Shown: piece after piece, positions 39,629 to 55,907 of the stretch | Numbering within the stretch: the first letter of the stretch is position 1 | Layout of the letters: every line of letters begins with the position of its first letter | From: Flavobacteriales bacterium | GTDB taxonomy: Bacteria; Bacteroidota; Bacteroidia; Flavobacteriales_F; PHOS-HE28 | DNA length: 64,000 bases | Assembly (NCBI GenBank): GCA_019638085.1 | Contig: JAHBUL010000008.1 | Span: 124,001-188,000 of the forward strand | Direction: 5' to 3' | The notes under the pieces: model-generated | What the model was told of the DNA's origin: nothing | The model's database searches: none | The model's input: only the letters and a program-made list of their open reading frames with translations | Translations under genes and position numbers: made by a program

Positions 39629-42286
39629 ATGGTGTCAACCGTACCCCCTCTGAGTTGCCCCCGCCCCCTTCAAAATGAACGCTCCCGGTCGCTGACCATC
39701 CTATGGACCGGCCTCCCCGTCCGATCGTTCCTGCTCATTGTACTCGGGATGGCTTCCACCACGGCACAGGCCACCACCTGCGCCAACGCCATCGTGATCA
39801 ACCCGGCCTCCTTGCCCATCACGAACCAAGCGTTGGTGTGCGGTACGGGGAATGAAATGAACGCGACCACGGTTCCAGGTGCCATCTGCGGCTCGGGGAG
39901 TTCCGAATTCTACAAGGGCGGAAGAGAGGCGCTCTATAGCTTCACTCCCACCACCTCGGCATCCTATCAGCTTTCCTATGCAGGCCAAAGCTGGAGTGCG
40001 GCCATGGTCTACATCGGTTGCCCCACATTGAACAACTGCCTCTACGGTTCAGGGCAGACCGGTACCGCGGTCAGTTTCTCCGTAACCCTCACTGCCGGTG
40101 TCACCTATTTCATCTGGTTCGATACTTGGCCGTCGCCCGCAAGCCCTTGTCCCGGCACGTTCAGCTTAGGCCCCCCACCACCGCCCATCACCAACGACAA
40201 CCCGTGCCAAGCCACAGGCTTGACCGTGAACCCCACCTTGGTCTGCACCTCGCAAACCCCTGGATCCCTGGTTGGGGCCACGGCCACCACAGGGGTCACC
40301 TCCCCCTGTGGTGGCACCCCCAACGATGATGTCTGGTTCAAATTCACCGCAACCGGCCCCACACACCATATCAGTCTCAATAACATTGCGGGTAGCACCA
40401 CTGACCTGTTCCACGCAGTGTTCAGCGGCCCCAATTGCAACTCGCTTACCAACGTCAGCTGCAGTGACCCGAACAGCTCCATCGTGACCGGTCTTATCAC
40501 AGGCAACACCTACTGGGTGCGTGTCTATTCCTGGTCCAGCAGCAACGGAGCCACCTCCACCTTCAATGTATGTGTTGGCACACCGCCACCGCCGCCACCG
40601 CCACCGGCTTGTGGCGGGACCTTCCATGATAATGGAGGAGCCACGGGGAGTTACCAGGCGAACAGCAACGAGACCACAACCATTTGCCCCGCTACTCCCG
40701 GCGATATGGTCTCCCTCATCTTCACACAGTTCGACCTGGAAACGAACTATGACCAACTACGGATCTACGATGGCAATTCAACGGCTGGCGCTCTGATGGG
40801 AACGTTCACGGGCAATGCACTTCCACCCGTGCTCACGGCAAGCAATCCCAGTGGTTGCCTCACGGTTGTCTTCACCTCCGATGGTTCCGTTCAATATGCA
40901 GGCTGGGCTGCACAGGTCCTTTGTGGGCCCATGCCGGCTGGTGATTGCGTCTACGCGCTCCACTTGCACGATAGCGGAGGCAACGGTTGGGGCACCTCCT
41001 CCGTTGGCGTCCGCATCAATGGCGGGCCATACACCTATCATACCGTTACAGCCTCCGACAACATCATATTCATTGGCGTGAACCTTGGCGACCTCATCGA
41101 ATTGAATTATGTGGCTACGGGTCCCAATCAAGGCCAGAATTCCTATTCCATTTCCAAGCTCGGCCAGAACCCCTATTTCACATCCTCTACACCACCCGCA
41201 GCGGGTATCATCTTCAGCCAGATCGTTACCTGTGGGCCTCCGCCTGCCCAGCCCCAGGATTGCGTGGGGGGTATTACGCTCTGTAGCTCCCAGTCCATAA
41301 CCAATTCCAGCGGAAGCACGGGCGATGTTATGGACCTCAACTCCACCAACCAAGGCTGTCTTTCCTCGGGCGAACGCCAAGGCACTTGGTACTACTTTTC
41401 CCCGCAGACTGCAGGGAACATCGGCTTTTCCATTACTCCAGCCAATGGTAACGACGATTACGACTTCGCCCTATGGGGGCCCTATGCAAGTGCCCAATGC
41501 CCCACTGGGCCACCGTTGCGTTGTAGCTACAATGCACCACCGAGCTATACGGTCGGCTTGGGCAACGGAGCTACCGATTTTACCGAGGGGGCCGGGGGTG
41601 ACGGTTGGGTGAGCACCATCAATGTGCAAGCGGATGATGTGTATGTGCTCTATATCGACAACTTCTCCACCACAGGCCAGGCCTTCACCCTCAATTGGCA
41701 GCTGACCAACACTTCGTTGGACTGCACCACCCTCCCCGTGGAGCTGATCTCCTTGGAAGCCACGGCCCGCAAGCCCGAGATCGATGTGACCTGGACCACC
41801 GCCACTGAACAGAACAGCAGCCACTTCATTGTGGAGCGCAGCCCCGACAATGGGACCTTCACACCCATAGGCACAATGGCAGCCGCAGGCAATACACAGT
41901 TCCGCCGGGATTACCACTTTGTGGATGTGGCCCCACACAAGGGCGTGAACTACTACCGCTTGCAACAGGTGGATCTGGACGGCACCACCGAACAGACCCA
42001 TACCGTAACTGCCATGCTGAATGAGGATGGCGGCAAACCCACCATTTACCCCAACCCGGCCAACGAGATCCTGAACGTAGCCTTCAATTCGCCTTTGGAT
42101 GGTACAGTCGTGCTCATGGTGGAAGATGCCTTGGGCCGCACCATTGCGCAGAGCACCACCGTTGCCCTGCGAGGCGAGCACAAAGCGGAAGTCCCGCTGA
42201 CAGGCCTAGCCAAGGGCTGGTACAACCTGCGCATCGCACTGCCGGATGGAAGCGTGTTGCAAGGAGGAGGTTTTTTGAAGAAGTGA
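39629..42286 (+). CDS. Large T9SS cargo protein with CUB domain
   Basis: An 885-residue secreted protein with a long N-region before the signal core (SFLLIVLGMASTTAQA). Domains in order: a PPC-like module (YSFTPTTSASYQLSYAG), a second (DVWFKFTATGPTHHISLN), a Pro-rich linker, a CUB domain at about 330-430 (CGGTFHDNGGATGSYQAN, YDQLRIYDGNSTAGALMG, CLTVVFTSDGSVQYAGW), then DCVYALHLHDSGGNGWGTS, and a module shared with the next gene (GTWYYFSPQTAGN, DDYDFALWGPYASAQCPTG). Last come a fibronectin-like block and the sorting tail (PTIYPNPANEILNVAF, GWYNLRIALPDGS). Likely a surface adhesin or structural protein. Start ATG 39629 is the only good one. Confidence 0.88.
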   Translation: MVSTVPPLSCPRPLQNERSRSLTILWTGLPVRSFLLIVLGMASTTAQATTCANAIVINPASLPITNQALVCGTGNEMNATTVPGAICGSGSSEFYKGGREALYSFTPTTSASYQLSYAGQSWSAAMVYIGCPTLNNCLYGSGQTGTAVSFSVTLTAGVTYFIWFDTWPSPASPCPGTFSLGPPPPPITNDNPCQATGLTVNPTLVCTSQTPGSLVGATATTGVTSPCGGTPNDDVWFKFTATGPTHHISLNNIAGSTTDLFHAVFSGPNCNSLTNVSCSDPNSSIVTGLITGNTYWVRVYSWSSSNGATSTFNVCVGTPPPPPPPPACGGTFHDNGGATGSYQANSNETTTICPATPGDMVSLIFTQFDLETNYDQLRIYDGNSTAGALMGTFTGNALPPVLTASNPSGCLTVVFTSDGSVQYAGWAAQVLCGPMPAGDCVYALHLHDSGGNGWGTSSVGVRINGGPYTYHTVTASDNIIFIGVNLGDLIELNYVATGPNQGQNSYSISKLGQNPYFTSSTPPAAGIIFSQIVTCGPPPAQPQDCVGGITLCSSQSITNSSGSTGDVMDLNSTNQGCLSSGERQGTWYYFSPQTAGNIGFSITPANGNDDYDFALWGPYASAQCPTGPPLRCSYNAPPSYTVGLGNGATDFTEGAGGDGWVSTINVQADDVYVLYIDNFSTTGQAFTLNWQLTNTSLDCTTLPVELISLEATARKPEIDVTWTTATEQNSSHFIVERSPDNGTFTPIGTMAAAGNTQFRRDYHFVDVAPHKGVNYYRLQQVDLDGTTEQTHTVTAMLNEDGGKPTIYPNPANEILNVAFNSPLDGTVVLMVEDALGRTIAQSTTVALRGEHKAEVPLTGLAKGWYNLRIALPDGSVLQGGGFLKK

Positions 42287-42290
42287 GCCT

Positions 42291-42327
42291 GGAGTCCGGA
42301 GTCATGAGTCGGGAGTCATGAGTCTCG
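42291..42327 (+). repeat. GAGTC simple-repeat tract
   Basis: GGAGTCCGGAGTCATGAGTC followed by GGGAGTCATGAGTC just after the stop of the CUB-domain gene. It is closely related to the minus-strand tract at 13376-13440 and leads directly into the hairpin at 42328. A shorter form (GATTCCTGAGTCTCGG) heads each unit of the island at 44704. Confidence 0.6.
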
Positions 42328-42354
42328 GTGAATTTGGCGAAGGGCCGAATTCAC
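42328..42354 (+). repeat. Core-hairpin repeat, single copy
   Basis: Left arm GTGAATTTGG, loop CGAAGGG, right arm CCGAATTCAC; the arms pair with one T/G wobble. This is the simplest member of the island family described at 44704-45290 and 52889-53435. The rest of the gap 42287-42790 holds an imperfect GATCCGAGG/CCTCGGAGATC pair at 42370-42398 and the hairpin at 42628-42645, with nothing gene-like. Confidence 0.65.
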
Positions 42355-42627
42355 GCTTCTTTTGATGTAGATCCGAGGTTTCGCGTGCCTCGGAGATCGC
42401 ACGGGCAACTGGAAAGTCCACCGACTTCCTGACACTCCCTGAAAGTACCGGCAAGGCCATCCACCATACGGTTGAATAGCAATATTGCCAAGCTGACCCT
42501 GCGTTGGGGCGGTACAGACCGGCTGCCACTTTGGGAAGGACCCTACGGCAGGTTTACCACTTCCAGACCCATATCCACTTTGGGTGAAATGGGGCAGAAC
42601 GGGGAATAAAACGCCGAACTAAAGCAC

Positions 42628-42645
42628 ATCCCCAAAATGGGGGAT
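42628..42645 (+). repeat. Short hairpin in the gap between the two T9SS paralogues
   Basis: ATCCCC, six bases AAAATG, then GGGGAT. A weak 6-bp stem with no run of T after it, so a terminator role is uncertain. The nearest gene start downstream is 42791. Confidence 0.35.
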
Positions 42646-42790
42646 CACATGGTTCTTCAAAGCAACTTGTTCACATCTTTATCGTATAGTGGTTGGCTTC
42701 CATCTCTCAAATAGGGAACTTAGTCGAATAATCACCGTGACAAACCTCAGGTTTGACCGGGTTCCTGTACGCCCACGAAATACCATTCGC

Positions 42791-44698
42791 ATGGTCATTC
42801 ACGCTGGATCCACCCACAGGTTGTCAACAACGCTAAGGCGCTATGTAGTTATCGCGCTTGTAGTATGCCTGGCCCTGCCTGATGTGTTCGCACAGGTCTC
42901 CAGTAACACCTGTGGCACCAATGCCGCGAATAAATACCCGGTGAACAACACGTGCGTCAACAGGGGCTTCAACGTACCAACAAGTTACACTGCCACATAT
43001 AATCCGGGAGGTTGTAACGCCGGAGCAAATTTTGATGGGTATGGTTGGTTCACAGCCACGAGCACGTTGACCACCGTGCGATTTACCCCAGCATTGAATA
43101 GGGATGGTATACTCCATGTACTTGCTGCATGTGGCGGAACAGTGCTGGGATGTTCGGATGTTTATGGGAACGGCGGAGCAGAAACCGTGACCATACCGAC
43201 GGTGATCGGCAATAACTACTTCGTGCGTGTGCAGCGTAAAAACAATGATGATGGAATGAACGGAAACCTCTGCGTCTATAACGAACAAAGGCCCATCCCC
43301 ACCGTGGGGGACTGCATGTACACGCTGAGCTTTTTCGACTCATGGGGTGATGGTTGGAACAGCTCGTATGTAGGTGTCTATATCAATGGCGATTGGTATG
43401 GTAACTGGACCATCAATGGTGCTGGCGGCTTCCTTGATTTCGCGGTGAACATTGGCGATGTTGTGGAGCTTGTCTATAACGCCTCCGGCTCCTACCAAAA
43501 TGAAAATTCATTCGTGCTGACAAAAACCACCCCGTGCGGGATCATTTACAGCTCAGGCTTTGCCCCCACGGCCGGTGTAAGCTACACGGGCACGGTCACC
43601 TGCACACCACCAGCTGCTGCACCGCAAGATTGTGTCGGCGGCACCACACTCTGTTCCAATGCATCGATAACCAGCAACAGCACCCACACGGGATGCAATG
43701 CAGACCTGAACGACAGCAATAAAGGCTGCCTTTCGGCCGGTGAGAACCAGGGCACTTGGTACTACTTCTCCCCATCTTCCAGCGGAACTCTGGGCTTTAC
43801 ACTCGTACCTCATGGCTCCACCGACGATTACGACTTCGCCCTGTGGGGACCATTCAGCTCCGCTCAATGTCCAACCGGTCCACCGATCCGATGCAGTTAT
43901 TATGATGGCAGGTATTACGGTAACACCACTACGGGAATGGGGAATGGCGCTACCGAACCGTCAGAGGGACCCTACCATCCGCCTCAAGGAAATGACCCGA
44001 ACGCCAATGGATGGGTGAGTACACTGAACGTGATAGCGGATATGGTCTATGTACTATACATCGACAATTACTCCTCCACCGGCCAGGCCTTTGACCTCTC
44101 CTGGCAACTCACCAACGGAGCATCCTTGGATTGTACCACGCTACCCGTGGAACTGCTCTCCTTGGATGCCACCGCCCGCACCTCCGTGATCGACGTGACC
44201 TGGGCCACAGCCTCTGAGCGGAACTCCGATCATTTCGATGTGCAGCGCAGTGCCGACAACGAGCACTTCGCCACCATAGGCACGGTGGGCGCCGCAGGCG
44301 ATGCCCAGTTCCGCAATGATTATCTCTTTGTGGATGAAGCACCGCTGAAGGGAGCCAACTACTACCGCCTGCGGCAAGTGGACCGCGATGGCACCGTCGA
44401 ATTCACCAAAACCGTGGTGGCCTTTATGGGCCATGGAGCGGACAGCCGCCCGGTGATCTTCCCAAACCCGGCCACCGACGTGCTCAACGTGGCCTTCAAC
44501 ACGCCGCTGGACGGCTCCGTTGTGCTCTATGTGCAGGATGCGGTAGGCCGCACGGTAACACAAAGCGCGGTGGTGCTGTTGCGCGGGGAACGCACCGCAG
44601 TGATCCCCACGGCGGACCTGGCCAACGGCTGGTACAACTTGCGCATAGCGTTGCCGGATGGCACCGTGCGGCAAGGCGGTGGGTTCTTGAAAAAGTGA
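42791..44698 (+). CDS. T9SS cargo protein, paralogue of the CUB-domain protein
   Basis: A 635-residue secreted protein with signal peptide (RRYVVIALVVCLALPDVFAQ). N-terminal region: FDGYGWFTATSTLTTVRFT and GNNYFVRVQRKNNDDGMNG; then DCMYTLSFFDSWGDGWNSS, parallel to the HLHDSGGNGWG block of the previous protein. The shared module follows (GTWYYFSPSSSGT, DDYDFALWGPFSSAQCPTG), then the fibronectin-like block (LPVELLSLDATARTSVIDV) and the sorting tail (PVIFPNPATDVLNVAF) ending GWYNLRIALPDGTVRQGGGF. The last third is closely alike in both, so the pair arose by duplication, but this copy lacks the CUB domain. Start at 42791 places the signal peptide properly; longer frames are possible. Confidence 0.86.
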   Translation: MVIHAGSTHRLSTTLRRYVVIALVVCLALPDVFAQVSSNTCGTNAANKYPVNNTCVNRGFNVPTSYTATYNPGGCNAGANFDGYGWFTATSTLTTVRFTPALNRDGILHVLAACGGTVLGCSDVYGNGGAETVTIPTVIGNNYFVRVQRKNNDDGMNGNLCVYNEQRPIPTVGDCMYTLSFFDSWGDGWNSSYVGVYINGDWYGNWTINGAGGFLDFAVNIGDVVELVYNASGSYQNENSFVLTKTTPCGIIYSSGFAPTAGVSYTGTVTCTPPAAAPQDCVGGTTLCSNASITSNSTHTGCNADLNDSNKGCLSAGENQGTWYYFSPSSSGTLGFTLVPHGSTDDYDFALWGPFSSAQCPTGPPIRCSYYDGRYYGNTTTGMGNGATEPSEGPYHPPQGNDPNANGWVSTLNVIADMVYVLYIDNYSSTGQAFDLSWQLTNGASLDCTTLPVELLSLDATARTSVIDVTWATASERNSDHFDVQRSADNEHFATIGTVGAAGDAQFRNDYLFVDEAPLKGANYYRLRQVDRDGTVEFTKTVVAFMGHGADSRPVIFPNPATDVLNVAFNTPLDGSVVLYVQDAVGRTVTQSAVVLLRGERTAVIPTADLANGWYNLRIALPDGTVRQGGGFLKK

Positions 44699-44703
44699 GT
44701 CGG

Positions 44704-45290
44704 GATTCCTGAGTCTCGGTGAATTCGGTCCCTGAGGGCCTCGAAGGGCCGAATTCTCAACAATGATCTTTCCGAAAGGTCGAAGGGCCGAATTCTCAAC
44801 AATGAACTTTCCGAAAGGTCGAAGGGCCGAATTCTCAACCAAGAACTGCTCGAAGTTCGAAAAGCCGAATGCACACACAGCAAACGTCCCAACGCAGGGT
44901 CCCGAGGCCGCGATCCGACGGTGACTTGAGATTCCTGAGTCTCGGTGAATTCGGTCCCTGAGGGCCTCGAAGGGCCGAATTCTCAACAATGAACTTTCCG
45001 AAAGATCGAAGAGCCGAATTCTCAACCAAGAACTGCTCGAAGTTCGAAAAGCCGAATGCACACACAGCAAACGTCCCAACGCAGGGTCCCGAGGCCGTGA
45101 CCCGACGGTGACTTGAGATTCCTGAGTCTCGGTGAATTCGGTCCCTGAGGGCCTCGAAGAGCCGAATTCTCAACAATGAACTTTCCGAAAGGTCGAAGGG
45201 CCGAATTCTCAACAATGAACTTTCCGAAAGGTCGAAGAGCCGAATTCATAACCCCGCGATTTCCGAGACCCGAAGGACCGTGTTCATAAC
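44704..45290 (+). repeat. Structured repeat island with GAATTCGG/CCGAATTC arms
   Basis: Three macro-units start GATTCCTGAGTC at 44704, 44930 and 45117 (226 and 187 bp apart; the difference is one 39-bp subunit). Each has a left arm GAATTCGG (44721, 44947, 45134), a core TCCCTGAGGGCCTCGAAG ending in GG or AG, and a right arm CCGAATTC exactly 28 bp after the left arm. Further right arms follow at steps of 39, 39 and 38 bp (39 and 38 in the shorter unit). The last arm of units 1 and 2 is degenerate (CCGAATGC); in unit 3 it has become CCGTGTTC, the word of the island at 52889. No gene is present; apparent frames are products of the repeats. Confidence 0.8.
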
Positions 45291-45320
45291 TCTCAGGCAA
45301 CCGCCAAGGCCTATCCCCGT

Positions 45321-45337
45321 CTTCCACTGTGTGGAAG
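45321..45337 (+). terminator. Strong short hairpin upstream of the tail-fibre-like trio
   Basis: CTTCCAC-TGT-GTGGAAG: perfect 7-bp stem with a three-base loop. There is no clear T-run after it (GCTCTTAAACC), so it may be a terminator or processing hairpin at the end of the repeat island. Confidence 0.4.
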
Positions 45338-45378
45338 GCTCTTAAACCCCTGATCCTTCCCAACCAAATCGTTCTTTC

Positions 45379-45406
45379 CATTTGCGCTGCAACGATCGCG
45401 CAAATG
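45379..45406 (+). promoter_or_regulatory. 9-bp inverted repeat upstream of the tail-fibre-like trio
   Basis: CATTTGCGC, ten bases, then GCGCAAATG: a perfect match. It lies 41 bp before the ATG at 45448, next to TACCTTCG (45409-45416), a one-mismatch version of the -7 box TAnnTTTG. It could be an operator or a leader hairpin for the three genes downstream. Confidence 0.5.
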
Positions 45407-45447
45407 ATTACCTTCGTGTCCCCTACACCCCTCCCATTGCACGCTCC

Positions 45448-47520
45448 ATGCGTAAACCCATACGCCTTCAGCTTTTCCTCACTGTGGCTGCCCTCGCGGC
45501 ATTCACCATCACCCATGCGCAGAACGTGGGTATCAACACCAATGGAATTGCAGCGGATCCTGCTGCCATATTGGACCTCAATGTTGACATATTGGGCGGC
45601 AACGCCAAACGCGGCCTGCTGATCCCCCGCATGACCGAAGCCCAGCGCTTGGCCATTCCCGTAGGTGCCGCCGATGACGCCCTGCTGGTTTACCAGACCG
45701 ATCTGGGAGCAACCCCCGATACCTCCAACGCACGCGGTTTCTGGTATTACGATGCCCCCACCACCAATTGGCTGCACCTGAGCACGGTGCGCCGCGGATG
45801 GTCACTTCGCGGGAACACCTTGGCTGGTAGCGGCAGCCCCGAATACCTCGGCCCCACCCAGTTCTCCACCAACCGTAACTTGGTGATGCGCACCCAGGCC
45901 GCACCGGCCAACCCCGCCTTGCAGATGAGCTACGCGCTGATGTATCCCGAGGCCGGCCTCGTGGGGTTGGGCACGCCTGCACCCGCCACCGAACGTCTTG
46001 AGGTGGAAGGTGCCATCCATTTCGCGACCAACGCCACGCCAGGTGCCCAAGTATCCACTCCCGTGGAGGGTGCCATACGCTACGGCACCGAGACCGGCTC
46101 AGCTCCTTCCGGCAGCAACCTCAAATGGCATTATGGCGTGCTGAACGACTCCATAACCGGAAACCGCTATTGGAGGCGCATGGAGAATGCCGAGAACCTG
46201 GTCTCCAACTCCCCCATGACCTCCTACCCCAAGGATACCGTGCAGTGCAACAACAGCATCGGTGATGCGATGCGGGGTGCCCTGAGCGCCACTCCCGTGA
46301 CCCAGACCTCCAACACGCCGCTGAACTACTATAGCCCCTTTGCCACCAACTTCGACCAGAACTCCGCCCGCAGCTTCCGTGTGCAATACCTCTACCGCTA
46401 TGAGGAACTCGTGGAGGCCGGCATCTGCTTCCCCGCCCAGATCAATGCGTTCGCCTTTTTCTGCTTGGACCAGGAAACACTGGACAACCCCGGCTCCCCG
46501 GATTTCCCCACAGTGCTCAACGGAGAGATCCGCGGTGGGGCGGCCACTTTCCCGTTGACGGGGTCAAGCGCCTATTTCGGGATCAACAACACGTCGTCGT
46601 ACATGGATAACAATATCCGCCTCTCCACCCCGAAGGGCTCGATCTATAACCTGACACCCGGCCCCGGCTGGATCAACTTTACCTTGGTGACGCCCATTAC
46701 GCTCGCCGTCAATGACAACCTGATCCTGGATATCGTATGGACCCGCAACGTAGGCGTAGGCGTAGGCCCAAAAGTGGAGTTGGAGGACCCCGGCTACACC
46801 TGCGTCAAATGGGTATATGCCACCAACATCAGCAATCAAGCGGGACGGAACCTGATCAGGGATAATCCGCTTTACCCCTCCAGTCCTCAAGGAGTGGTCT
46901 CACCCAACAGCCCGCACCGGTGGCGCCCGGTTACACGCTTTACCGGCAAGGTGGAGGTGCCCGATGTGATAGAGCGCCGGGCCAACTACATCCAGTACGG
47001 CGGTGGCATTTTGGTGGGTGATCCAACTTGGTATAGCACCGAACCCCGGAAAGGCCCCGGCACCGTGCAGGTGCAGAACGGGATCTATGATGGCCATGTG
47101 CTCCTGAGCGACCATGTGTTCGACCGCTATTTCGATGGGGCACCACGCCCTGAGGATGCCCAAGCCGCAGAAGGATACGCCTACGTGGGCCTGTCCCAAC
47201 TGCGCGAGCGGCTGGAGCGCGAGCGGCACCTGCCCAACATGCCATCGCGCAGCCAGTGGGAGGCGCGCGGCGGTGCCAGCCTTGGTACGCTCACCACCGG
47301 CCTGTGGCGATCCGTGGAGGATCAGGCCCTCTACATCACACAGTTGGAAAAGGACCTGAGCACCTTGGAGGAAATGGTCTTCGGCCCCGACCTCACACCG
47401 CAAGAGGCCCAGCGCCTGATCGCGGAGATCCAAGCCAGCAAGCGCCTTACCGAGGCCCAGAAGCTGCACCTGGTAGATTCCTTGAACGAAAAGGCCCAAG
47501 ACGGCACCCCCAAGAAATGA
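45448..47520 (+). CDS. Tail-fibre-like surface protein 1 of 3
   Basis: A 690-residue secreted protein: signal peptide (LQLFLTVAALAAFTITHAQ), then the head sequence NVGINTNGIAADPAAILDL and RGLLIPRMTEAQRLAIP. These are typical of Bacteroidota proteins that resemble phage tail fibres. The middle is a beta-rich region specific to this copy (AINAFAFFCLD-type jelly-roll strands, INFTLVTPITLAVNDNLIL). The C-terminus has HVLLSDHVFDRYFDG, LRERLERERHLPNM and LWRSVEDQALYITQLEKDL, then a coiled coil, like the trimerising tail-fibre/endosialidase chaperone-like end but without a recognisable self-cleavage site. No T9SS tail. First of three tandem paralogues; its stop overlaps the next start as ATGA. Confidence 0.85.
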   Translation: MRKPIRLQLFLTVAALAAFTITHAQNVGINTNGIAADPAAILDLNVDILGGNAKRGLLIPRMTEAQRLAIPVGAADDALLVYQTDLGATPDTSNARGFWYYDAPTTNWLHLSTVRRGWSLRGNTLAGSGSPEYLGPTQFSTNRNLVMRTQAAPANPALQMSYALMYPEAGLVGLGTPAPATERLEVEGAIHFATNATPGAQVSTPVEGAIRYGTETGSAPSGSNLKWHYGVLNDSITGNRYWRRMENAENLVSNSPMTSYPKDTVQCNNSIGDAMRGALSATPVTQTSNTPLNYYSPFATNFDQNSARSFRVQYLYRYEELVEAGICFPAQINAFAFFCLDQETLDNPGSPDFPTVLNGEIRGGAATFPLTGSSAYFGINNTSSYMDNNIRLSTPKGSIYNLTPGPGWINFTLVTPITLAVNDNLILDIVWTRNVGVGVGPKVELEDPGYTCVKWVYATNISNQAGRNLIRDNPLYPSSPQGVVSPNSPHRWRPVTRFTGKVEVPDVIERRANYIQYGGGILVGDPTWYSTEPRKGPGTVQVQNGIYDGHVLLSDHVFDRYFDGAPRPEDAQAAEGYAYVGLSQLRERLERERHLPNMPSRSQWEARGGASLGTLTTGLWRSVEDQALYITQLEKDLSTLEEMVFGPDLTPQEAQRLIAEIQASKRLTEAQKLHLVDSLNEKAQDGTPKK

Positions 47521-49730
47521 ACGCCGCCAACCGCACCCTCCGCCTTGCGCACCCGGCCCTGCTGGTGCTCTGCGCCATCGGTATTGCCACCGGCGCGGCC
47601 GCGCAGAACGGCAACATCGCCATAAATACCACCGGTGCCGCCGCCGACCCCAAGGCCCTGCTCGATCTGACCTCCATCACCAAAGGCCTGTTGATCCCAC
47701 GCATGGCCGCCCTGCCCGGAGGGGCATTGCCCAGCGGATTGGTGGCATACCGGACCGGCGCACCACGCGGATTTTTTGTGTACGAGAACGGCGGCTGGAT
47801 CCCCTTGATCCCCGGCGGAAAAAATGCGTGGGACATCTACGGGAACACCCTCACGGATGCCACCTATACCAATCCGGATTTCATAGGCACCACGGACGGC
47901 GCGCCGATGTATTTCCGCACCAATAACCTGCACCGCATGCGTATCGATGGTGGTACGGGTTACCTCGGGGTGGGCTATCCGGCCGGGGCCGCGTTGGCTG
48001 CGGAGCGCCTGGACATCAATGGCCAGCTCAGCATGTACTATGCACCGACCGGCACCATTCCCATCAGCCTCACCAACGCACCGGGCGTGTTCCGCTACCA
48101 GACCTTCGGCAACCTCACCGGTACCGTACCCTATCGCCGCGGCAGCAACGAATTGATGGCGACCAACCCCGATAACGGTGCTACGAACAACGCGGTGCTG
48201 GGAACGCCCAATGGCTACCCTTTGCAGTACGCCGGCCACTGGGGGAACATCGGTGATTCCGCCATGGTACAAGGCAAGAGCACTCCGGTACTCGTACAGC
48301 CCAAGACCTATGGCTGGCGGGCCTTCGAGAACCCTTATGATGAGGAGCGCGGTGCATGGACCCACTTCCGCGAAGCGGTATGCACCACCGTGGATGCTGA
48401 GGTCACGATCCCGCCCACCGGCGCCTACAACAGCACGGCCGCAGGAAATCCTGCACAATTCTACGTCACACCGTTCTACGGAAATGGTGCCCCTTATACA
48501 CGGCATCAATACCTTTTCAGGGCCAGCGAACTGAACTTGGAGCTATCCGGGTACACAGGTGGCTTGTGCCCGGGCGGGGAGGTGAAGCGGATCTCCTTCT
48601 ATGTGCTCGGCACCGGCACAAGGTCCATCAACCCCATCGGTACGGTCACGGTGCGCAACGCACCGCCCGGCGTGAATGAACTCTTCGGCTTTGACAACAC
48701 CGTGGACGCCTCGGGAACGATGGGATGCGCAAACTTGGCGCCGGGTACGCAATGGCCAACCATAGCCGGAACCGGATGGATGGACATCCCCCTCAGCACT
48801 TCTTTTTTCTGGGACGGCACCAGCAATGTGATCGTGGAAGTGGCGGTCCGCACCATCCCAATGCCTGCCGATGGTACTCGGCACGTGCAATGCACACTTA
48901 CCCCGTTCAACTCCACCTATGGGGCGTTCAGTACGGGTCCCCCCGCCGTAGCCATCCTGCTTCCGGACCCAGGCTCGCCCGGCTGGTCCTGCAACAATAC
49001 CGGCAACGTGATGACCCGCATGCCCGACGCGGCGAATCCGCCCTATTCGGCCGGTGCAAGCCCGTACCGTCCCATGATCAAGTTTTTCGGTAAAGTGACC
49101 GGTCAGGGGCCAAGTGGTGCCGGCTACACCACCGGGACCGGCCCGTACCTCACGTATAATGGGGCACTGGTGCTGGAGGATACAGTAACGGCACGAACGG
49201 ACATTCCATGGGGCCGCTGGCGCCCCGGCACGCCCAGCTTCAATACCTTTTGGTCCTACCAAGGCAAGGGTACACTTTCGGCCCAGCACGGGGTGTATGA
49301 TAACCTCACCAATTTGAACGACCACGTCTTCGACCGGGCCTTTGATGGGCGCGTGGCCCCCGGCGATGCCGAAAAGCATGGGGAGCAACACCTGTTGAGC
49401 ATCCGCGAGATGGAGGCCTTCACCCGCACCAACCGCCATCTGCCCACCATGAAGGGCCGCGCCGACTGGAATGCCGAGGGTGGCTTCTCCTTGGGCGATC
49501 TCACCAACCAGCTCTGGGCCACCACCGAAGTGCAAACGCTCTATGTGGCCGAACTGCACGACAAGCTCAACGTGATCGAAATGCTCACCAACGAGCGCCC
49601 CATCACCCGGGAGGAGTTCCATATCGCCCGGCAGCAACTGGCCGGCATGGCCGAATACACCGACGCGGAAAAGGCCCGCCTGATCGCCGCCCTGCGCAAG
49701 CGCGCGCCCCTTACCTCCCCATCCCGATAA
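47517..49730 (+). CDS. Tail-fibre-like surface protein 2 of 3
   Basis: A 737-residue paralogue starting at the ATG in the ATGA overlap with protein 1, so it is translationally coupled. Signal peptide ALLVLCAIGIATGAAAQ, then GNIAINTTGAAADPKALLDL and KGLLIPRMAALPGG. A specific middle region includes GEVKRISFYVLGTGTRS and GWMDIPLSTSFFWDGTSNV. The C-terminus has NLNDHVFDRAFDG, FTRTNRHLPTMKGR, LWATTEVQTLYVAELHDKL and a helical tail. The conserved head and foot with a divergent middle suggest a set of trimeric surface fibres with different tips or binding faces. Confidence 0.85.
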   Translation: MNAANRTLRLAHPALLVLCAIGIATGAAAQNGNIAINTTGAAADPKALLDLTSITKGLLIPRMAALPGGALPSGLVAYRTGAPRGFFVYENGGWIPLIPGGKNAWDIYGNTLTDATYTNPDFIGTTDGAPMYFRTNNLHRMRIDGGTGYLGVGYPAGAALAAERLDINGQLSMYYAPTGTIPISLTNAPGVFRYQTFGNLTGTVPYRRGSNELMATNPDNGATNNAVLGTPNGYPLQYAGHWGNIGDSAMVQGKSTPVLVQPKTYGWRAFENPYDEERGAWTHFREAVCTTVDAEVTIPPTGAYNSTAAGNPAQFYVTPFYGNGAPYTRHQYLFRASELNLELSGYTGGLCPGGEVKRISFYVLGTGTRSINPIGTVTVRNAPPGVNELFGFDNTVDASGTMGCANLAPGTQWPTIAGTGWMDIPLSTSFFWDGTSNVIVEVAVRTIPMPADGTRHVQCTLTPFNSTYGAFSTGPPAVAILLPDPGSPGWSCNNTGNVMTRMPDAANPPYSAGASPYRPMIKFFGKVTGQGPSGAGYTTGTGPYLTYNGALVLEDTVTARTDIPWGRWRPGTPSFNTFWSYQGKGTLSAQHGVYDNLTNLNDHVFDRAFDGRVAPGDAEKHGEQHLLSIREMEAFTRTNRHLPTMKGRADWNAEGGFSLGDLTNQLWATTEVQTLYVAELHDKLNVIEMLTNERPITREEFHIARQQLAGMAEYTDAEKARLIAALRKRAPLTSPSR

Positions 49731-49839
49731 GGTCATGGTACACCCCTCGCTTCCCCATACCCATTCCCCACGACCCGCCCACCGGATGCCTGTCGCCATT
49801 ACGCTTGCTGCACCCACGCACACGCCTCGGGAAGGCCGG

Positions 49840-51831
49840 ATGTTCCGCACCTTGCTGGTCACCCTGCTTCTATTGGCGCTCTCACTCGGCCTCCGTGCGC
49901 AGGTGGCCATCAACACCACCGGTGCTCCACCAGCAGCGAACGCCATTTTGGACATCAGCAGCACCAACAAAGGCCTACTGATACCGCGCATGACCCGCGC
50001 CCAGCGCATAGCCATTGCCGCTCCGCCCCAAGGGCTGATGGTATACCAGACCGATTCGGTCACCACCGACCCCAAGGGCTTGTGGTACTATGACCCGGCC
50101 ACCCCCATTGTGGGCTGGAAGCACGTGGCCTGGGGACCGGCACTCTGGAAACTGGGCGGCAATGCCGGTACCAGTGCCGCGGATTTCCTCGGTACGCTGA
50201 ACAACCTTCCGCTGTTGTTCTGGATCGCCAACTATGAACGGGGCCGCATCAGCGCCAATGGGGAATTACAACTCTACCACACCGGCGCCCCCGTGGGCCC
50301 CACGGGCTTGGTGCATGTGGAAGGGGCCATTAAGCTGAAAGGGGGAAGTGTAGGCGATACGGAAGGAACCATCCGATACACCCCAGGGGCCGGTACCGTG
50401 CCCAACAAGTTCGAAGGCTATGTGCAAAATGGAGACGGTTCCGATCCTGACATCAACGGGTGGAAGCAGATCGATAACAACTTCGGAGAGCGCAAGTTGC
50501 AGGAAACCCCCATTCCCGGTGCCAGCTGCCAATTGCCTTCAAGTACGACCGATCCGCTCACAGGGCCACGGCCATGGCCTATTCCGGGTCCTTCCGCCGG
50601 TCCGTTCGGGCAACTCACCGGTGCCTCCTCCCCCTACTACGGGTTTTGGGAGGATTCCCGCAGGCAGTATCTCTTCTTGGCCAGCGACCTCAATGCGGCC
50701 GGCATTTGCGGAGGATCCGGCAACCCCATCCAGGCCATCGCCTTCGAGGTGGTTGCACTGCACTCCGGACCGGGGCGATTGCATTTCCTGCGTTACCGGA
50801 TGAAGAATACCAGCGACATGGCGATCACGAATTTCGATAATTCGGGCTGGATCACCTTCGCTCAGCCCAGCCCCCCTGATATTGCGGGCCCACCGGAGCG
50901 CTATACCGACCACAATACCGGGTTCAACGCGGTGAGCGGATGGAACGTGCATAACGGAACACCTTTCGTTTGGAGCGGGAACAACCTCAAGATCGATGCA
51001 GCACTGGACAACCAGACCTGGTCGTCCTTATGGAACAGTTCGGTGCGTTCGTACAACACCACGTACAACAGCATGATCAGCAACTACTGTGATGCCTGTG
51101 GAGGTACCGGTGCAGGAACGTGTACGTGGCAGACTCCTGTTGCGCCTCCTTTCTATTTCCCCCCCACAACGCCTACCAATGGGATGATAGGAACCAACTC
51201 CAACACCCCGGACTGGGGATGGGTAAGCGGCTGGAACATGACGGAGTCGACCAATACGATCACCTGCGATGGTACCGTTCCCACCTATAACTCAGGTTCT
51301 CCGGTCTCCATCTTGAACCGCCTACCGCGCGTGGCCTTCTACACCAAGTACACCGGCTCCGGCGCATCATACAGGGTGGGCAGCTATATGTACGCGCAAG
51401 AGGGTCTGATGGTGGGGGATGCGGCGTGGGCTGCCAGCGGTACCTACCCGAACAATCCCTTCAAGGGTCCCGGCACCATCACGGCCAAGCGCAGCGTATG
51501 GTCCGGCACCACCCTGCTCACCGACTATGTGTTCGACCTCTACTATGATGGAGTAGCCAAGCCCGAGGATGCAGTAGGCGCCTCGCAGTACGTGCGTACC
51601 CCGCTAAAGGAACTACCCAACTACGTGGAGCGCGAGCGCCGCTTGCCCAATGTGGACGGCCGTGATGAATGGAACAAGTCCGGCATCTTCAGTGTGGACA
51701 AGCTCGGCAACCAGCTATGGGTGACCGTGGAGGACCAAGCGCTTTACATCCAGGAGCTCAATGCCCGCATGGATGCGCTGAAGCAATTCCTCGTGGAGAA
51801 GAAGCTGAAGGAGCTCGAGGGCGATCAGTAG
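49840..51831 (+). CDS. Tail-fibre-like surface protein 3 of 3
   Basis: A 663-residue paralogue with signal peptide (FRTLLVTLLLLALSLGLRAQ), then VAINTTGAPPAANAILDI, NKGLLIPRMTRAQRIAI, a divergent centre (QAIAFEVVALHSGPGRLHF, NTTYNSMISNYCDACGGTG), and a foot with LLTDYVFDLYYDG, LPNYVERERRLPNVDGRD and LWVTVEDQALYIQELNARM. Start at 49840 begins the signal peptide; a start 35 codons earlier gives a non-signal extension. The 109-bp gap from protein 2 contains no visible terminator, so the trio is likely one operon. Confidence 0.85.
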   Translation: MFRTLLVTLLLLALSLGLRAQVAINTTGAPPAANAILDISSTNKGLLIPRMTRAQRIAIAAPPQGLMVYQTDSVTTDPKGLWYYDPATPIVGWKHVAWGPALWKLGGNAGTSAADFLGTLNNLPLLFWIANYERGRISANGELQLYHTGAPVGPTGLVHVEGAIKLKGGSVGDTEGTIRYTPGAGTVPNKFEGYVQNGDGSDPDINGWKQIDNNFGERKLQETPIPGASCQLPSSTTDPLTGPRPWPIPGPSAGPFGQLTGASSPYYGFWEDSRRQYLFLASDLNAAGICGGSGNPIQAIAFEVVALHSGPGRLHFLRYRMKNTSDMAITNFDNSGWITFAQPSPPDIAGPPERYTDHNTGFNAVSGWNVHNGTPFVWSGNNLKIDAALDNQTWSSLWNSSVRSYNTTYNSMISNYCDACGGTGAGTCTWQTPVAPPFYFPPTTPTNGMIGTNSNTPDWGWVSGWNMTESTNTITCDGTVPTYNSGSPVSILNRLPRVAFYTKYTGSGASYRVGSYMYAQEGLMVGDAAWAASGTYPNNPFKGPGTITAKRSVWSGTTLLTDYVFDLYYDGVAKPEDAVGASQYVRTPLKELPNYVERERRLPNVDGRDEWNKSGIFSVDKLGNQLWVTVEDQALYIQELNARMDALKQFLVEKKLKELEGDQ

Positions 51832-52071
51832 ATCAGCTGCTTCCGCCCAAGCCTTGGCGAAGGAGGATGATGGAATGTCTCCCGGTGAGAGCTGGGTCTC
51901 CATGGTGGGCGATCCGGAACGCTGATCATGCACGGTGCGCCTATTCGCCGCCGATGATCCCATCGCGGCCCGAATTCCACATGCGTCATTCCCAAGCCTC
52001 GAAGGAGATCATCCCACAGGACCATCCTTCTTCCAGCGCCACCCGGATGTACCTTCCCCGCCTCCGCCTCA

Positions 52072-52905
52072 ATGTCCTCCTTTACCCATGGCCGCCTCAC
52101 CATGGCCATACACCGCTACGGTGATGGCCCTTTGCCCCTATTGGCCTTCCACGGTTTCGACCGCACCGGGAGCGACTTTGCCATACTTTCCCCGGCATTG
52201 GGAAAGCGGTGTACCATCCATGCCTTCGACCTTTCATTCCATGGCCACAGCCCTTCACCAAGCGGTGAAGGACCGATCACACCGGAGGAATTCGCTGCAT
52301 TCTTCCAGGCCTATGCCCGGGAACTCGGCGGTGGATCCATGGCCCTGCTGGGCTATAGCCTGGGCGGAAGGCTTGCCTTGGGCCTCGTGGAGCAATGCCC
52401 CCTGCTGTGGAACCACATCTTCCTGGTGGCTCCCGATGGCTTGGTAGCGCAGCCGTGGTACCGCAGCATGGCACAGTATCGCTGGGGGCGCTGGGTGTAT
52501 CGCCAATTCATCGACCATCCCGGCGGCATTCACGCCCTGATCAACCTGCTCTTCCGCACCCGCCTGATCGGCGAACGCATGCATCGCTTCCTGATGGGCC
52601 ATAGTGATTCCAAGCAGGCACGCGAACTCCTGCATGATGTATGGACCGGCTTTCGCCTGATCGAACCCGACCTGCGCCGCGTAGCACTGAACCTCAGCGA
52701 GCAAAAGCTGCCCTTGCACCTCTTCGTAGGAGAGCACGACAGGGTGATCAAGCCCGCGCAGGCCAAGCGATTGAAGCAGCTGGCGCCCGAGGAGGTCCAT
52801 GTGCATGTAATGCCCACCGGCCACCGCATGCTGACTGCGGAACTGGGCGAGGCCATTGCTGGCGCGTTGTCGGGAACCGCGACCTCGCGTGAACACGGTC
52901 CTTGA
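52072..52905 (+). CDS. Alpha/beta-hydrolase fold protein
   Basis: A 277-residue hydrolase. The oxyanion strand LLAFHGFDRTGSDF, the nucleophile elbow MALLGYSLGGRLAL (Ser in GYSLGG), the acid in LFVGEHDRVIKP and the base in MPTGHRML are all in place. A lid region with PWYRSMAQYRWGRWVY lies between. It is a cytoplasmic esterase/lipase-like or menaquinone-type hydrolase; the substrate is unknown. The first ATG (52072) is taken, although one ten codons later is also possible. The last residues (REHGP) are encoded by the first left arm of the repeat island that begins at 52889. Confidence 0.85.
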   Translation: MSSFTHGRLTMAIHRYGDGPLPLLAFHGFDRTGSDFAILSPALGKRCTIHAFDLSFHGHSPSPSGEGPITPEEFAAFFQAYARELGGGSMALLGYSLGGRLALGLVEQCPLLWNHIFLVAPDGLVAQPWYRSMAQYRWGRWVYRQFIDHPGGIHALINLLFRTRLIGERMHRFLMGHSDSKQARELLHDVWTGFRLIEPDLRRVALNLSEQKLPLHLFVGEHDRVIKPAQAKRLKQLAPEEVHVHVMPTGHRMLTAELGEAIAGALSGTATSREHGP

Positions 52906-53435
52906 AGTTCTCAGTGAACACCATCCTGAGGTTCTCAGTGAACACGGTCTGGAGGTGCTCAGTGAACACGGTCCCTGAGGCCCTCGAAGGGCCTTGTTCA
53001 CAACCAACCTTACCCACATATCCATCCCCTCGAAGGGCCGTGTTCACAACCAACCTTACTCACATATCCATCCCCTCGAAGGGCCGTGTTCACAACCGAT
53101 CTTACCCACATATCCATCCCTCGAAGTGCCGTGTTCACAACCAAACTCACCCACATATCCATCCCCTCGATGGGCCGTGTTCACAACCGATCTTATCCAC
53201 ATATCCCTCCCATCGAAGGGCCTTGTTCACACTACCCTGACCCCGTGATCAGAACACGCGAAACTCAAACCGGGGCTTCGCCCCTTCGAGTACCTTAGGG
53301 TACAGAGCCTCAGCCACCGGTTTGAGTGAACACGGTCTGGAGGTGCTCAGTGAACACGGTCCCTGAGGCCCTCGAAGGGCCGTGTTCACAACCAACCTTA
53401 CTCACATATCCATCCCCTCGAAGGGCCTTGTTCAA
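52889..53435 (+). repeat. Structured repeat island with GTGAACACGG/CCGTGTTCAC arms
   Basis: Left arms GTGAACACGG or a variant lie at 52889, 52914, 52938 and 52962 (steps 25, 24, 24). The core TCCCTGAGGCCCTCGAAGGG follows. Right arms CCGTGTTCAC or CCTTGTTCAC lie at 52992, 53038, 53084, 53129, 53175 and 53221 (steps 46, 46, 45, 46, 46), joined by a near-constant spacer containing CACATATCCATCCCCTCGA. A short second copy follows: left arms at 53326 and 53350, right arms at 53380 and 53426 (46 bp). The plan matches the island at 44704, with a different stem word and subunit length. No gene is present between 52906 and 53579; frames here are repeat products. Confidence 0.8.
53263..53327 (+). repeat. 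Nested palindrome inside the repeat island
   Basis: Outer arms ACTCAAACCGG (53263-53273) and CCGGTTTGAGT (53317-53327) are perfect. Inside are two hairpins: GGGGC-TTC-GCCCC (53272-53284) and GTACC-TTAG-GGTAC (53290-53303). A 15-bp segment at the right end (AGCCTCAGCCACCGG, 53306-53320) recurs at 53509-53523. Confidence 0.65.
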
Positions 53436-53579
53436 ATCCAAACAAACCCCAAAGGCGGACCTGAAATAGCGAACCGCTGCGCCGATCCTTCCAGTACCGG
53501 ACCCCGAAAGCCTCAGCCACCGGCGTGCACCACGCGCTGTCAACTAATTTAGCGCCCCCCTGCAAGGAAGCCCATCTCC

Positions 53580-55907
53580 ATGACACGAACCTCTCTCTTC
53601 CGCCTGGCGCTGCTCTGCGCCTTGCTCCTACCCGTTTTTGCCTTGGCCCAAACCGGCACGGTCCGTGGCTTTGTATACGAAGAGAGCAGTGGCGAACCTT
53701 CCATCTTCACCCCTGTGGCACTGCGCGGCGCCACCAATTACAGCGCACAGACCGATGTGAACGGCTACTTCTCCATCAGCAAGGTAACGCCCGGTGCGTA
53801 CACCCTCCAGGTGATCTACTTGGGCTTCGACACCTTGCAGAAGAAAGTGGACATCACCGCAGACCAGATCATCACCGAACAGCTCTACCTGAAAAAGGGA
53901 AGCATACAGATGCGCGCGGTCGAGGTTTCCGCAGAGAAGCAACAGACCCAGCAGAACGTACGGGTGGGCGTTACCAAGCTCACCCCGAAACAGATCGAAC
54001 GCCTGCCCGCCATCGGAGGCCAAGCGGATCTCGCGCAATACATGCAGGTGGTGCCCGGCGTGGTGTTCACCGGTGACCAAGGCGGCCAACTGTACATCCG
54101 GGGCGGATCGCCCGTGCAGAACAAGGTGTTGATGGATGGTATGGTGCTCTACAATCCCTTCCACAGCATCGGCCTTTTCAGCGTGTTCGACAATGATGTG
54201 ATCCGCAACGCGGACATCCTCACCGGTGCCTTCAATGCCGAATACGGCGGTCGCGTAAGCAGCGTGATGGACATCACCACCCGCGATGGGAACAAAACGC
54301 GTTTGGGCGGCAAAGTGGCCGCCAGCACTTTCGCGGCCAAGGGCCTACTGGAGGGACCCTTGAAGAAGCAGAGCGCGCCGGGAAAAGGCAGCAGCTCGTT
54401 CCTGCTCAACTTCAAGCACAGCTACTTGGACCAGACCAGCAAGAGCCTGTACAGCTATGTGGATACCGCCGGACTACCGTTCAAGTTCACGGACCTCTAC
54501 GGCAAGATCTCGCTCAACGGCGCCAACGGCAGCAAGGTGAATTTCTTCGGCTTCAACTTCACCGACGGGGCCAAGTACCGCGGCATCAGCGACCTGGACT
54601 GGAAGAACTGGGGGGCGGGCACCAATTTCGTGCTGGTGCCTTCGGGCAGTGCGGTGCTGATCCAAGGCGTGTTCGCGCTGAGCAACTACAAGATCGAACT
54701 GCTGGAGGGCGACCTGATGCCACGCACCAGCAGCATCAACAACTTCAACGGGGGGCTCAACTTCAAGTACTTCACCGGCCGCAACGAGGTCCACTACGGC
54801 TTCGAGGTCACAGGGGTGAAGACCGATCTGAGCTTCTTCAACTCCTTGGGCTACGAGCTGCAGCAGCAAAAAGTGAGCACCGAGTTGGCCGGTTTTCTCA
54901 ACTATAAGATCCGCGCTGGCAAATGGGTGTTCGACCCCGGCATGCGCCTGCAGTACTATGCCACCTTGGCCGTGCTCAGCCCCGAACCGCGATTCGGATT
55001 CAAATGGAACGTTAGCGACCGTTTCCGCATCAAGGGTGCCGCTGGTATGTACAGCCAGAACCTGATCGCCACCAACAACGACCGCGATGTGGTGAACCTG
55101 TTCTACGGGTTCATCACGGCACCGGATGACATCCCCCAAACGCTCACCACCAAAAATGGCGACGTGCGTGAGATAAAGGACCCGTTGCAACATGCCAACC
55201 ACGTGGTGGGTGGTTTCGAATACGACCTCACTCCCAAGGCAAGCATCAACATCGAAGGATACTACAAGGATTTCCGCCAGGTGACCAACGTGAACCGCGA
55301 GAAGCTGTACAACGACACGCCGGAATTCGCGAGCAAGCCGGACGAGCAGAAGAAGGACTTCATTGTGGAGACGGGCAGTGCCTACGGTGCCGACTTTCTC
55401 CTGACATACGAGAACAAGGGACTCTATATCTGGGCGGTATATTCACTGAATTTCGTGGACCGCTTCGATGGAACACGCGAGTACAACCCGATCTGGGACC
55501 GCCGCAACAACGTGAACCTGGTGGCCAGCTACACCTTCGGGAAGCATACCAGCTGGAAGGCCAGTGCACGCTGGAACTACGGCTCCGGCTTTCCCTTCAC
55601 GCAGAACCAAGGTTTCTACGAACGCTTGCCTTTCAGCGATGGGATCGGAACGGACATCAACACCGCGAACGGCGACCTGGCGGTGATCTACGGCCCCCTC
55701 AACGGCGGACGGCTCACCGATTACCACCGCATGGACCTGGGTATCACCAAGACGTGGAAGCTGAGCGAATACCAAGTGGTGGAACTCGACGTGAGCGTGA
55801 CCAACGTGTACGATCGTGAGAACATCTTCTACCGCGATCGTGTAACGGGCAAGGAGGTGTACCAGCTACCGATTCTGCCGAGCGTGGGATTTTCGTACAC
55901 GTTCTGA
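53580..55907 (+). CDS. TonB-dependent outer-membrane receptor with carboxypeptidase-like N-domain
   Basis: A 775-residue receptor: signal peptide (RLALLCALLLPVFALAQ), then a CarboxypepD_reg-like domain (TVRGFVYEESSGEPSIFTP, TDVNGYFSISKVTPGAYTL). The plug domain includes GVTKLTPKQIERLPAIGGQ, QYMQVVPGVVFTGDQGGQL and YIRGGSPVQNKVLMDGM, and a 22-strand-type barrel runs to the terminal ILPSVGFSYTF with C-terminal Phe. It imports a ligand such as a siderophore or peptide using TonB. No SusD partner is adjacent, so a glycan-import pair is unlikely. Ligand unknown. Confidence 0.92.
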   Translation: MTRTSLFRLALLCALLLPVFALAQTGTVRGFVYEESSGEPSIFTPVALRGATNYSAQTDVNGYFSISKVTPGAYTLQVIYLGFDTLQKKVDITADQIITEQLYLKKGSIQMRAVEVSAEKQQTQQNVRVGVTKLTPKQIERLPAIGGQADLAQYMQVVPGVVFTGDQGGQLYIRGGSPVQNKVLMDGMVLYNPFHSIGLFSVFDNDVIRNADILTGAFNAEYGGRVSSVMDITTRDGNKTRLGGKVAASTFAAKGLLEGPLKKQSAPGKGSSSFLLNFKHSYLDQTSKSLYSYVDTAGLPFKFTDLYGKISLNGANGSKVNFFGFNFTDGAKYRGISDLDWKNWGAGTNFVLVPSGSAVLIQGVFALSNYKIELLEGDLMPRTSSINNFNGGLNFKYFTGRNEVHYGFEVTGVKTDLSFFNSLGYELQQQKVSTELAGFLNYKIRAGKWVFDPGMRLQYYATLAVLSPEPRFGFKWNVSDRFRIKGAAGMYSQNLIATNNDRDVVNLFYGFITAPDDIPQTLTTKNGDVREIKDPLQHANHVVGGFEYDLTPKASINIEGYYKDFRQVTNVNREKLYNDTPEFASKPDEQKKDFIVETGSAYGADFLLTYENKGLYIWAVYSLNFVDRFDGTREYNPIWDRRNNVNLVASYTFGKHTSWKASARWNYGSGFPFTQNQGFYERLPFSDGIGTDINTANGDLAVIYGPLNGGRLTDYHRMDLGITKTWKLSEYQVVELDVSVTNVYDRENIFYRDRVTGKEVYQLPILPSVGFSYTF

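Follow-up and report, generated by a model that had tools for sequence, protein, structure and literature searches.

Three islands of repeated sequence in a 64,000-nt stretch of a Flavobacteriales genome (the window) belong to a familiar class of mobile genome repeat, in a form that has not been catalogued. They are probably copies of a non-autonomous hairpin repeat resembling REPs and BIMEs, whose core is kept and whose outer arms are free in sequence but still pair. Elements of the family are dispersed, imperfect palindromes built from an outer arm, the core GG-T-CCCTGAGG NN CTCGAAGGG-CC, and a complementary outer arm. A full element is 44 nt long. At least 10 outer stem pairs are followed by GG/CC, one unpaired T in the left side, CCCT/AGGG, GAG/CTC with GA unpaired in the right side, and a loop of three bases. 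The core is almost invariant and the loop varies (GTT, GCA, GGC, GCC).

The islands are found at 42328-42354, 44719-45290 and 52889-53435 (Table 1), in agreement with an earlier note that took them for one repeat family, and their motif is more frequent than chance allows: TCGAAGGGCCNNNTTCA, with up to three mismatches, occurs 24 times in the window versus 6.8 (sd 2.1) in shuffles, and none of 100 shuffles reaches 24. Folds of single elements are also more stable than those of shuffles (z -2.4 to -7.0). Island 1 is a single short hairpin that lacks CCCTGAGG and is a core-less relative of the first element in island 2. Island 2 contains three GTGAATTCGG-T-CCCTGAGGGCCTCGAAGGG-CCGAATTC elements, with additional right arms at 38–39 nt intervals; its right arm is mostly CCGAATTCTC, with the loss of one outer pair. 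Island 3 consists of left halves and right halves tandemly repeated around a single core, with four left arms 24–25 nt apart and six right arms 45–46 nt apart, followed by an inverted nested palindrome and then a second short unit that is 96% identical to 52937-53053. The inverted partner carries a third stem word and is a covariance-model match on the minus strand (C35:177270-177313).

Table 1. Positions of island features in the window and of the RAYT-like genes elsewhere in its source genome
Feature	Position	Strand	Remarks
Island 1, short hairpin GTGAATTTGG-CGAAGGG-CCGAATTCAC	42328..42354	+	fold z -7.0
Island 2, element 1: GTGAATTCGG / core / CCGAATTC	44719..44758	+	
Island 2, extra right arms, 38-39-nt period	44780..44877	+	final one decayed
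Island 2, element 2	44945..44984	+	within 187-nt tandem repeat
Island 2, extra right arms behind element 2	45006..45064	+	final one decayed
Island 2, element 3	45132..45171	+	core ...CGAAGAG
Island 2, extra right arms	45193..45290	+	final one with other word, CCGTGTTCA
Island 3, three extra left arms GTGAACAC.., 24-25-nt period	52889..52961	+	direct repeats
Island 3, first complete element, stem GTGAACACGG / CC(T)TGTTCAC	52962..53003	+	fold z -3.2
Island 3, five extra right arms, conserved spacer, 45-46-nt period	53030..53233	+	direct repeat
Island 3, inverted partner, nested palindrome, stem CTCAAACCGG/CCGGTTTGAG	53264..53326	-	fold z -3.6
Island 3, second unit: left arm, then complete element at 53350-53391 and a single additional right arm	53325..53436	+	
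RAYT-like gene (C1)	L061:1357-1962	+	own genome
RAYT-like gene (C34)	L062:1255-1908	-	own genome

Islands 1 and 2 both sit behind paralogous gene ends (a 74% repeat, 42168-42303 / 44580-44715), which continue as a 91% repeat over 42305-42337 / 44696-44728; island 1 itself is a 91% direct repeat with 44696-44728. Judging from these sequences, the two islands are probably not independent of each other. They differ in TCCCTGAGGGCCT at the hairpin tip, and together provide an in-window hairpin pair with and without the core tip. GAGTC-rich short repeats (GAGTCATGAGTCGGGAGTC) immediately precede both islands (42291-42326 and 44696-44717) and are also present near other elements (L151 near 15350, and L202). 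Between islands 2 and 3, three consecutive large ORFs (45382-51831) have segments in common (71–76% DNA repeats) and look like tandem paralogues.

The source genome of the window (G000; 4.0 Mb, 36 contigs) contains 57 covariance-model matches, mostly between reading frames; elements were gathered by pattern and model searches and the set may be incomplete. The pattern GGTCCCTGAGNNNCTCGAAGGGCC, with up to two mismatches, is found 44 times in this genome versus none for the reversed pattern. The family has the general properties of REPs, which are imperfect palindromes of 20–45 nt, high in copy number and extragenic. Eight '+-' inverted pairs have core starts 65–78 nt apart, a spacing in keeping with BIMEs and REPINs, and six '-+' pairs are spaced variably; the inverted pairs mostly join unlike stems. 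Unusual forms recur outside the window as well. First, left-arm arrays are present at L136, L144, L146 and L147. Second, core-in-core nesting is present at L133, L134, L135, L148, L150 (two cases) and L151, and one locus in another species (L209 of G058) exhibits symmetric nesting at three levels. Third, several pairs (L137, L146, L149) have a degenerate half-site, TCGAA(A/G)G, 43–45 nt past the core, a distance similar to the 45–46 nt period of the right-arm array in the window.

Gene contexts, taken from naive reading frames, place few elements between divergent genes. Elements near stop codons are in the sense versus antisense direction of the gene at about 12:3 by our count, in which several sense cases are paralogous gene ends. 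At five loci (L124, L129, L130, L138, L145) elements immediately follow the stops of paralogous genes that encode a common, secretion-tail-like C-terminus, ..TVQRLSIIR, and their stems contain GCTTCGG.

Pairing of the arms was assessed in 49 elements placed in a fixed frame, whose inner six-base arm segments comprise 33 different words. An element's own arms are paired at 291 of 392 positions versus 170 (sd 9.7) with permuted arms, a value reached by 0 of 5000 permutations; with one element per arm word, 189 of 264 positions are paired versus 104 (sd 8), and some elements in these counts are non-independent through stem words common to paralogous gene ends. In a 32-row alignment, two-sided changes affect 12 of the 19 pairs and total 83 cells, versus 29.3 in shuffles, and the signal is lost when the structure is slid along the columns (17–31). 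The matched TTC/CAC stem change described in the earlier note is genuine and is one among dozens of stem words in the genome. Because the matched changes exceed both the permutation and the column-slide controls, and recur with other stems in a genome from another class of Bacteroidota (G069), arm pairing is either maintained or regenerated repeatedly. Nor is the covariation of the order expected from copying of one ancestral sequence, as deep lineages with the same core differ in their stems.

Covariation is frequently treated as near-proof of RNA function. Selection on an RNA through point mutation should leave G-U intermediates, whereas arm-to-arm copying should not. In the modelled strand there are 469 Watson-Crick, 8 G-U and 6 A-C pairs, with no excess of G-U over A-C, and 83 two-sided changes stand against about 11 one-sided standard ones. 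The stem words seem to have been replaced whole in single steps, the result expected of template switching or copying, on counts that are modest. Template switching during replication is documented to make multi-base compensatory changes, which it is predicted to do in both arms of a hairpin without intermediates (PMC8794818). Given this precedent, the mostly two-sided changes and the lack of a G-U excess, DNA-level arm copying plus the spread of stem sub-families is the likelier source of the matched changes. The likeness to template-switch hairpin evolution lies in the multi-base, both-arm changes and the few intermediates; unlike the RNA genes of that study (PMC8794818), the islands are a dispersed DNA repeat in which template switching would be read from the pattern alone. 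The claim that compensating changes are strong evidence that the fold matters therefore goes too far: the changes themselves are far beyond the controls, but they are word-sized and almost always alter both arms, and one-sided intermediates are few. The stems may be subject to selection and copying alike.

RNA function is possible for the elements, for which matched stem changes alone are no proof. It is unlikely, on present evidence, that they are primarily structured RNAs (3'-UTR hairpins, attenuators or small RNAs) shaped by true compensatory mutations, with the islands as tandem arrays of RNA elements. Such RNAs would account for arms that pair despite changed sequence in independent genomes, for good folding of single elements as RNA, and for the position of most elements just 3' of genes, somewhat more often in the gene's sense. 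The sense bias, however, includes the paralogous gene ends and is weak once those are removed, no element matches Rfam at the gathering score, and the pair types described above and the sites empty in relatives also speak against this explanation.

The family is expanded in this one genome: each of 44 genus relatives has 0–3 covariance-model matches versus 57 in G000. An inverted pair at L128 lies between convergent genes that are about 10–15 bp apart in six relatives without the pair. The sites at L143 and L149 are likewise without the element in relatives, and relatives have no island upstream of window gene 53580. As the inspected sites are empty in relatives, pairs have been gained or moved; these comparisons were made at roughly 75–80% identity, a divergence at which element borders and target-site duplications are not definable. 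In the closest relative found (G013), an element at one orthologous site has decayed but shares the right arm; the family was therefore present in the genus before it expanded in G000. That cores were inserted into pre-existing hairpins was rejected, since three orthologous empty sites have no hairpin.

Of 118 Bacteroidota genomes, 14 contain the core. G069 combines it with entirely different stems, such as GAAATACCCG/CGGGTATTTC and GTTTCTTCC/GGAAGAAAC; with 14 distinct left arms, the own-arm score is 6.61 versus 4.17 for permuted arms (0 of 1000 permutations). Of two further core-rich genomes, G050 shows a marginal pairing effect, and in G131 own arms pair no better than permuted ones. A species-specific family was considered and rejected: the exact pattern is almost confined to the species within its genus, but the core recurs across the phylum. 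A plasmid search for the family found nothing, and viral contigs gave eight single core matches with mostly unpaired flanks. With dozens of elements, and the repetition with other stems in a second Bacteroidota class, selection on RNA becomes separable from copying at the DNA level. It is conceivable, if rather improbable, that the repeat is a phylum-wide mobile hairpin of which a putative enzyme reads only the core CCCTGAG(G)NN(C)TCGAAGGG, each insertion generating new arms through fold-back copying of the local DNA; such an element would write its own stem and grow by nesting. At one locus (L202 of G008, about 1500-1560), a CCTGAGCCTGTCGAAGG core has near-perfect arms of about 18 bp (GAGTGGCGAGTGAATGCG / CGCATTCACTCGCCACTC) built of local short-repeat sequence, as though copied from adjoining DNA.

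In its behavior the family resembles REPs and BIMEs: the features described for REPs include short palindromes, inverted dimers that join unlike stems, clustering, location 3' of genes and species-to-species turnover, and the CGTC REPs also lack a dedicated transposase (PMC3733652). Like the GTAG and CGTC REPs (PMC3733652), the island family comprises short imperfect palindromes with many copies between and 3' of genes, inverted dimers, unlike-stem dimers, clusters, and a copy number that differs greatly among related species. Unlike them, it has a conserved tip core with variable arms, whereas REP families are described with their own stems, and some of its copies are nested or built of half-sites in tandem. 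The hairpin foot carries no GTAG or CGTC tag, and flanks beyond the arms are not conserved. Lacking both this tag and a cognate RAYT, the family is not placed in those REP families. Inverted pairs at roughly constant spacing are shared with BIMEs and REPINs, which are inserted and lost as a unit; the island pairs may move in this way too, one pair being absent from orthologous sites whose exact borders are not definable. Unlike BIMEs and REPINs, the partners usually have unlike stems, and a cognate transposase was not found. The earlier note knew of no described multi-arm array with stem swapping. Unlike-stem dimers and clusters are in fact on record for REPs (PMC3733652), while the core string itself was not found in the literature searched.

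A search with the PF01797 profile identified two genes in G000 (Table 1), whose proteins are 63% identical, contain HUH and YIHMNP motifs, and resemble subclass 2.6 RAYTs of Bacteroidetes, a group with atypical flanking structures that have copies elsewhere in the genome (PMC6006769). The islands would then be REPs moved in trans by one resident gene of this subclass (group 5), which we regard as quite doubtful, even though the phylum is the same, two such genes are present, and one of them has two elements at a distance of about 1 kb (L151). Unlike the expectation from those systems (PMC6006769), the structures that flank the two genes differ in sequence from the islands: each gene has its own hairpin family (GCACTCGCGACACGCGAGCGC; GCCGCTCGGCTTTTTGCCGAGTGGC with GGGCCTCCGGCCC), and related loci in other species (L221-L223) keep that pairing. 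Neither gene is flanked by copies of the island repeat, and PF01797 proteins occur in most genus relatives without the island family. Comparison with G013 shows why elements lie near L062: the small gene upstream was copied in tandem together with the element. The same comparison led us to reject a 31-bp direct repeat around L062 as an insertion footprint inside an element. The resident genes were thus rejected as the cognate enzyme, and the associated protein family that the earlier note had proposed to look for was not found, leaving the island family with no known mobiliser. No Y1 protein was found beside the other elements examined in G000 or at other Bacteroidota loci. Y1 transposases of G014 and G029, associated with CCTGAA(A/G)GGGTCG repeats, were also discarded, as both the repeat and the enzyme subclass differ. 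Short IS200-like proteins of 147 aa with a YI(E/D).Q.(E/Q)HH motif (L110 in G029, L116 in G014) adjoin many GACCCTGAAGGGGTCGCAG-type palindromes in both orientations and resemble subclass 1.2, said to be without flanking repeats.

That the elements are ordinary transcription terminators sharing a motif by chance is highly improbable: many do lie 4–60 bp past a stop codon, but the T run that follows the G+C-rich hairpin of an intrinsic terminator is absent, with no terminator-like site in 44600-45500 and two unrelated ones on the minus strand in 52800-53600, the core is conserved across the phylum far too well, and termination needs no nested or tandem forms.

For the REP/BIME-like repeat that we favor, the fixed part would be the core hairpin, and outside it the arms could be nearly any sequence that pairs. 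The inverted pair would spread via a folded single-stranded DNA intermediate, cut by a putative core-reading enzyme, in the way that RAYTs are believed to mobilize REPs, and template switching, or copying from one arm to the other, would replace arm words whole. A simple reading of the multi-arm order is slippage between half-sites, with extra arms arising from half-site copies, CCTGAGG..CTC for the left arms and TCGAAGG in the core plus dimer spacer for the right arms. Some copies may secondarily serve as 3'-end RNA hairpins. Discovery of a core-reading enzyme would establish a REP system that lacks the usual tag and whose stems are free. Finally, a related motif, CCTGAGCGCAGCGAAGG / CCTGAGCAAAGCGAAGG, forms tandem arrays with a period of about 110–145 bp at two other loci of the same genome, L156 (G000:C34:68526-68910) and L157 (G000:C33:14553-14848).
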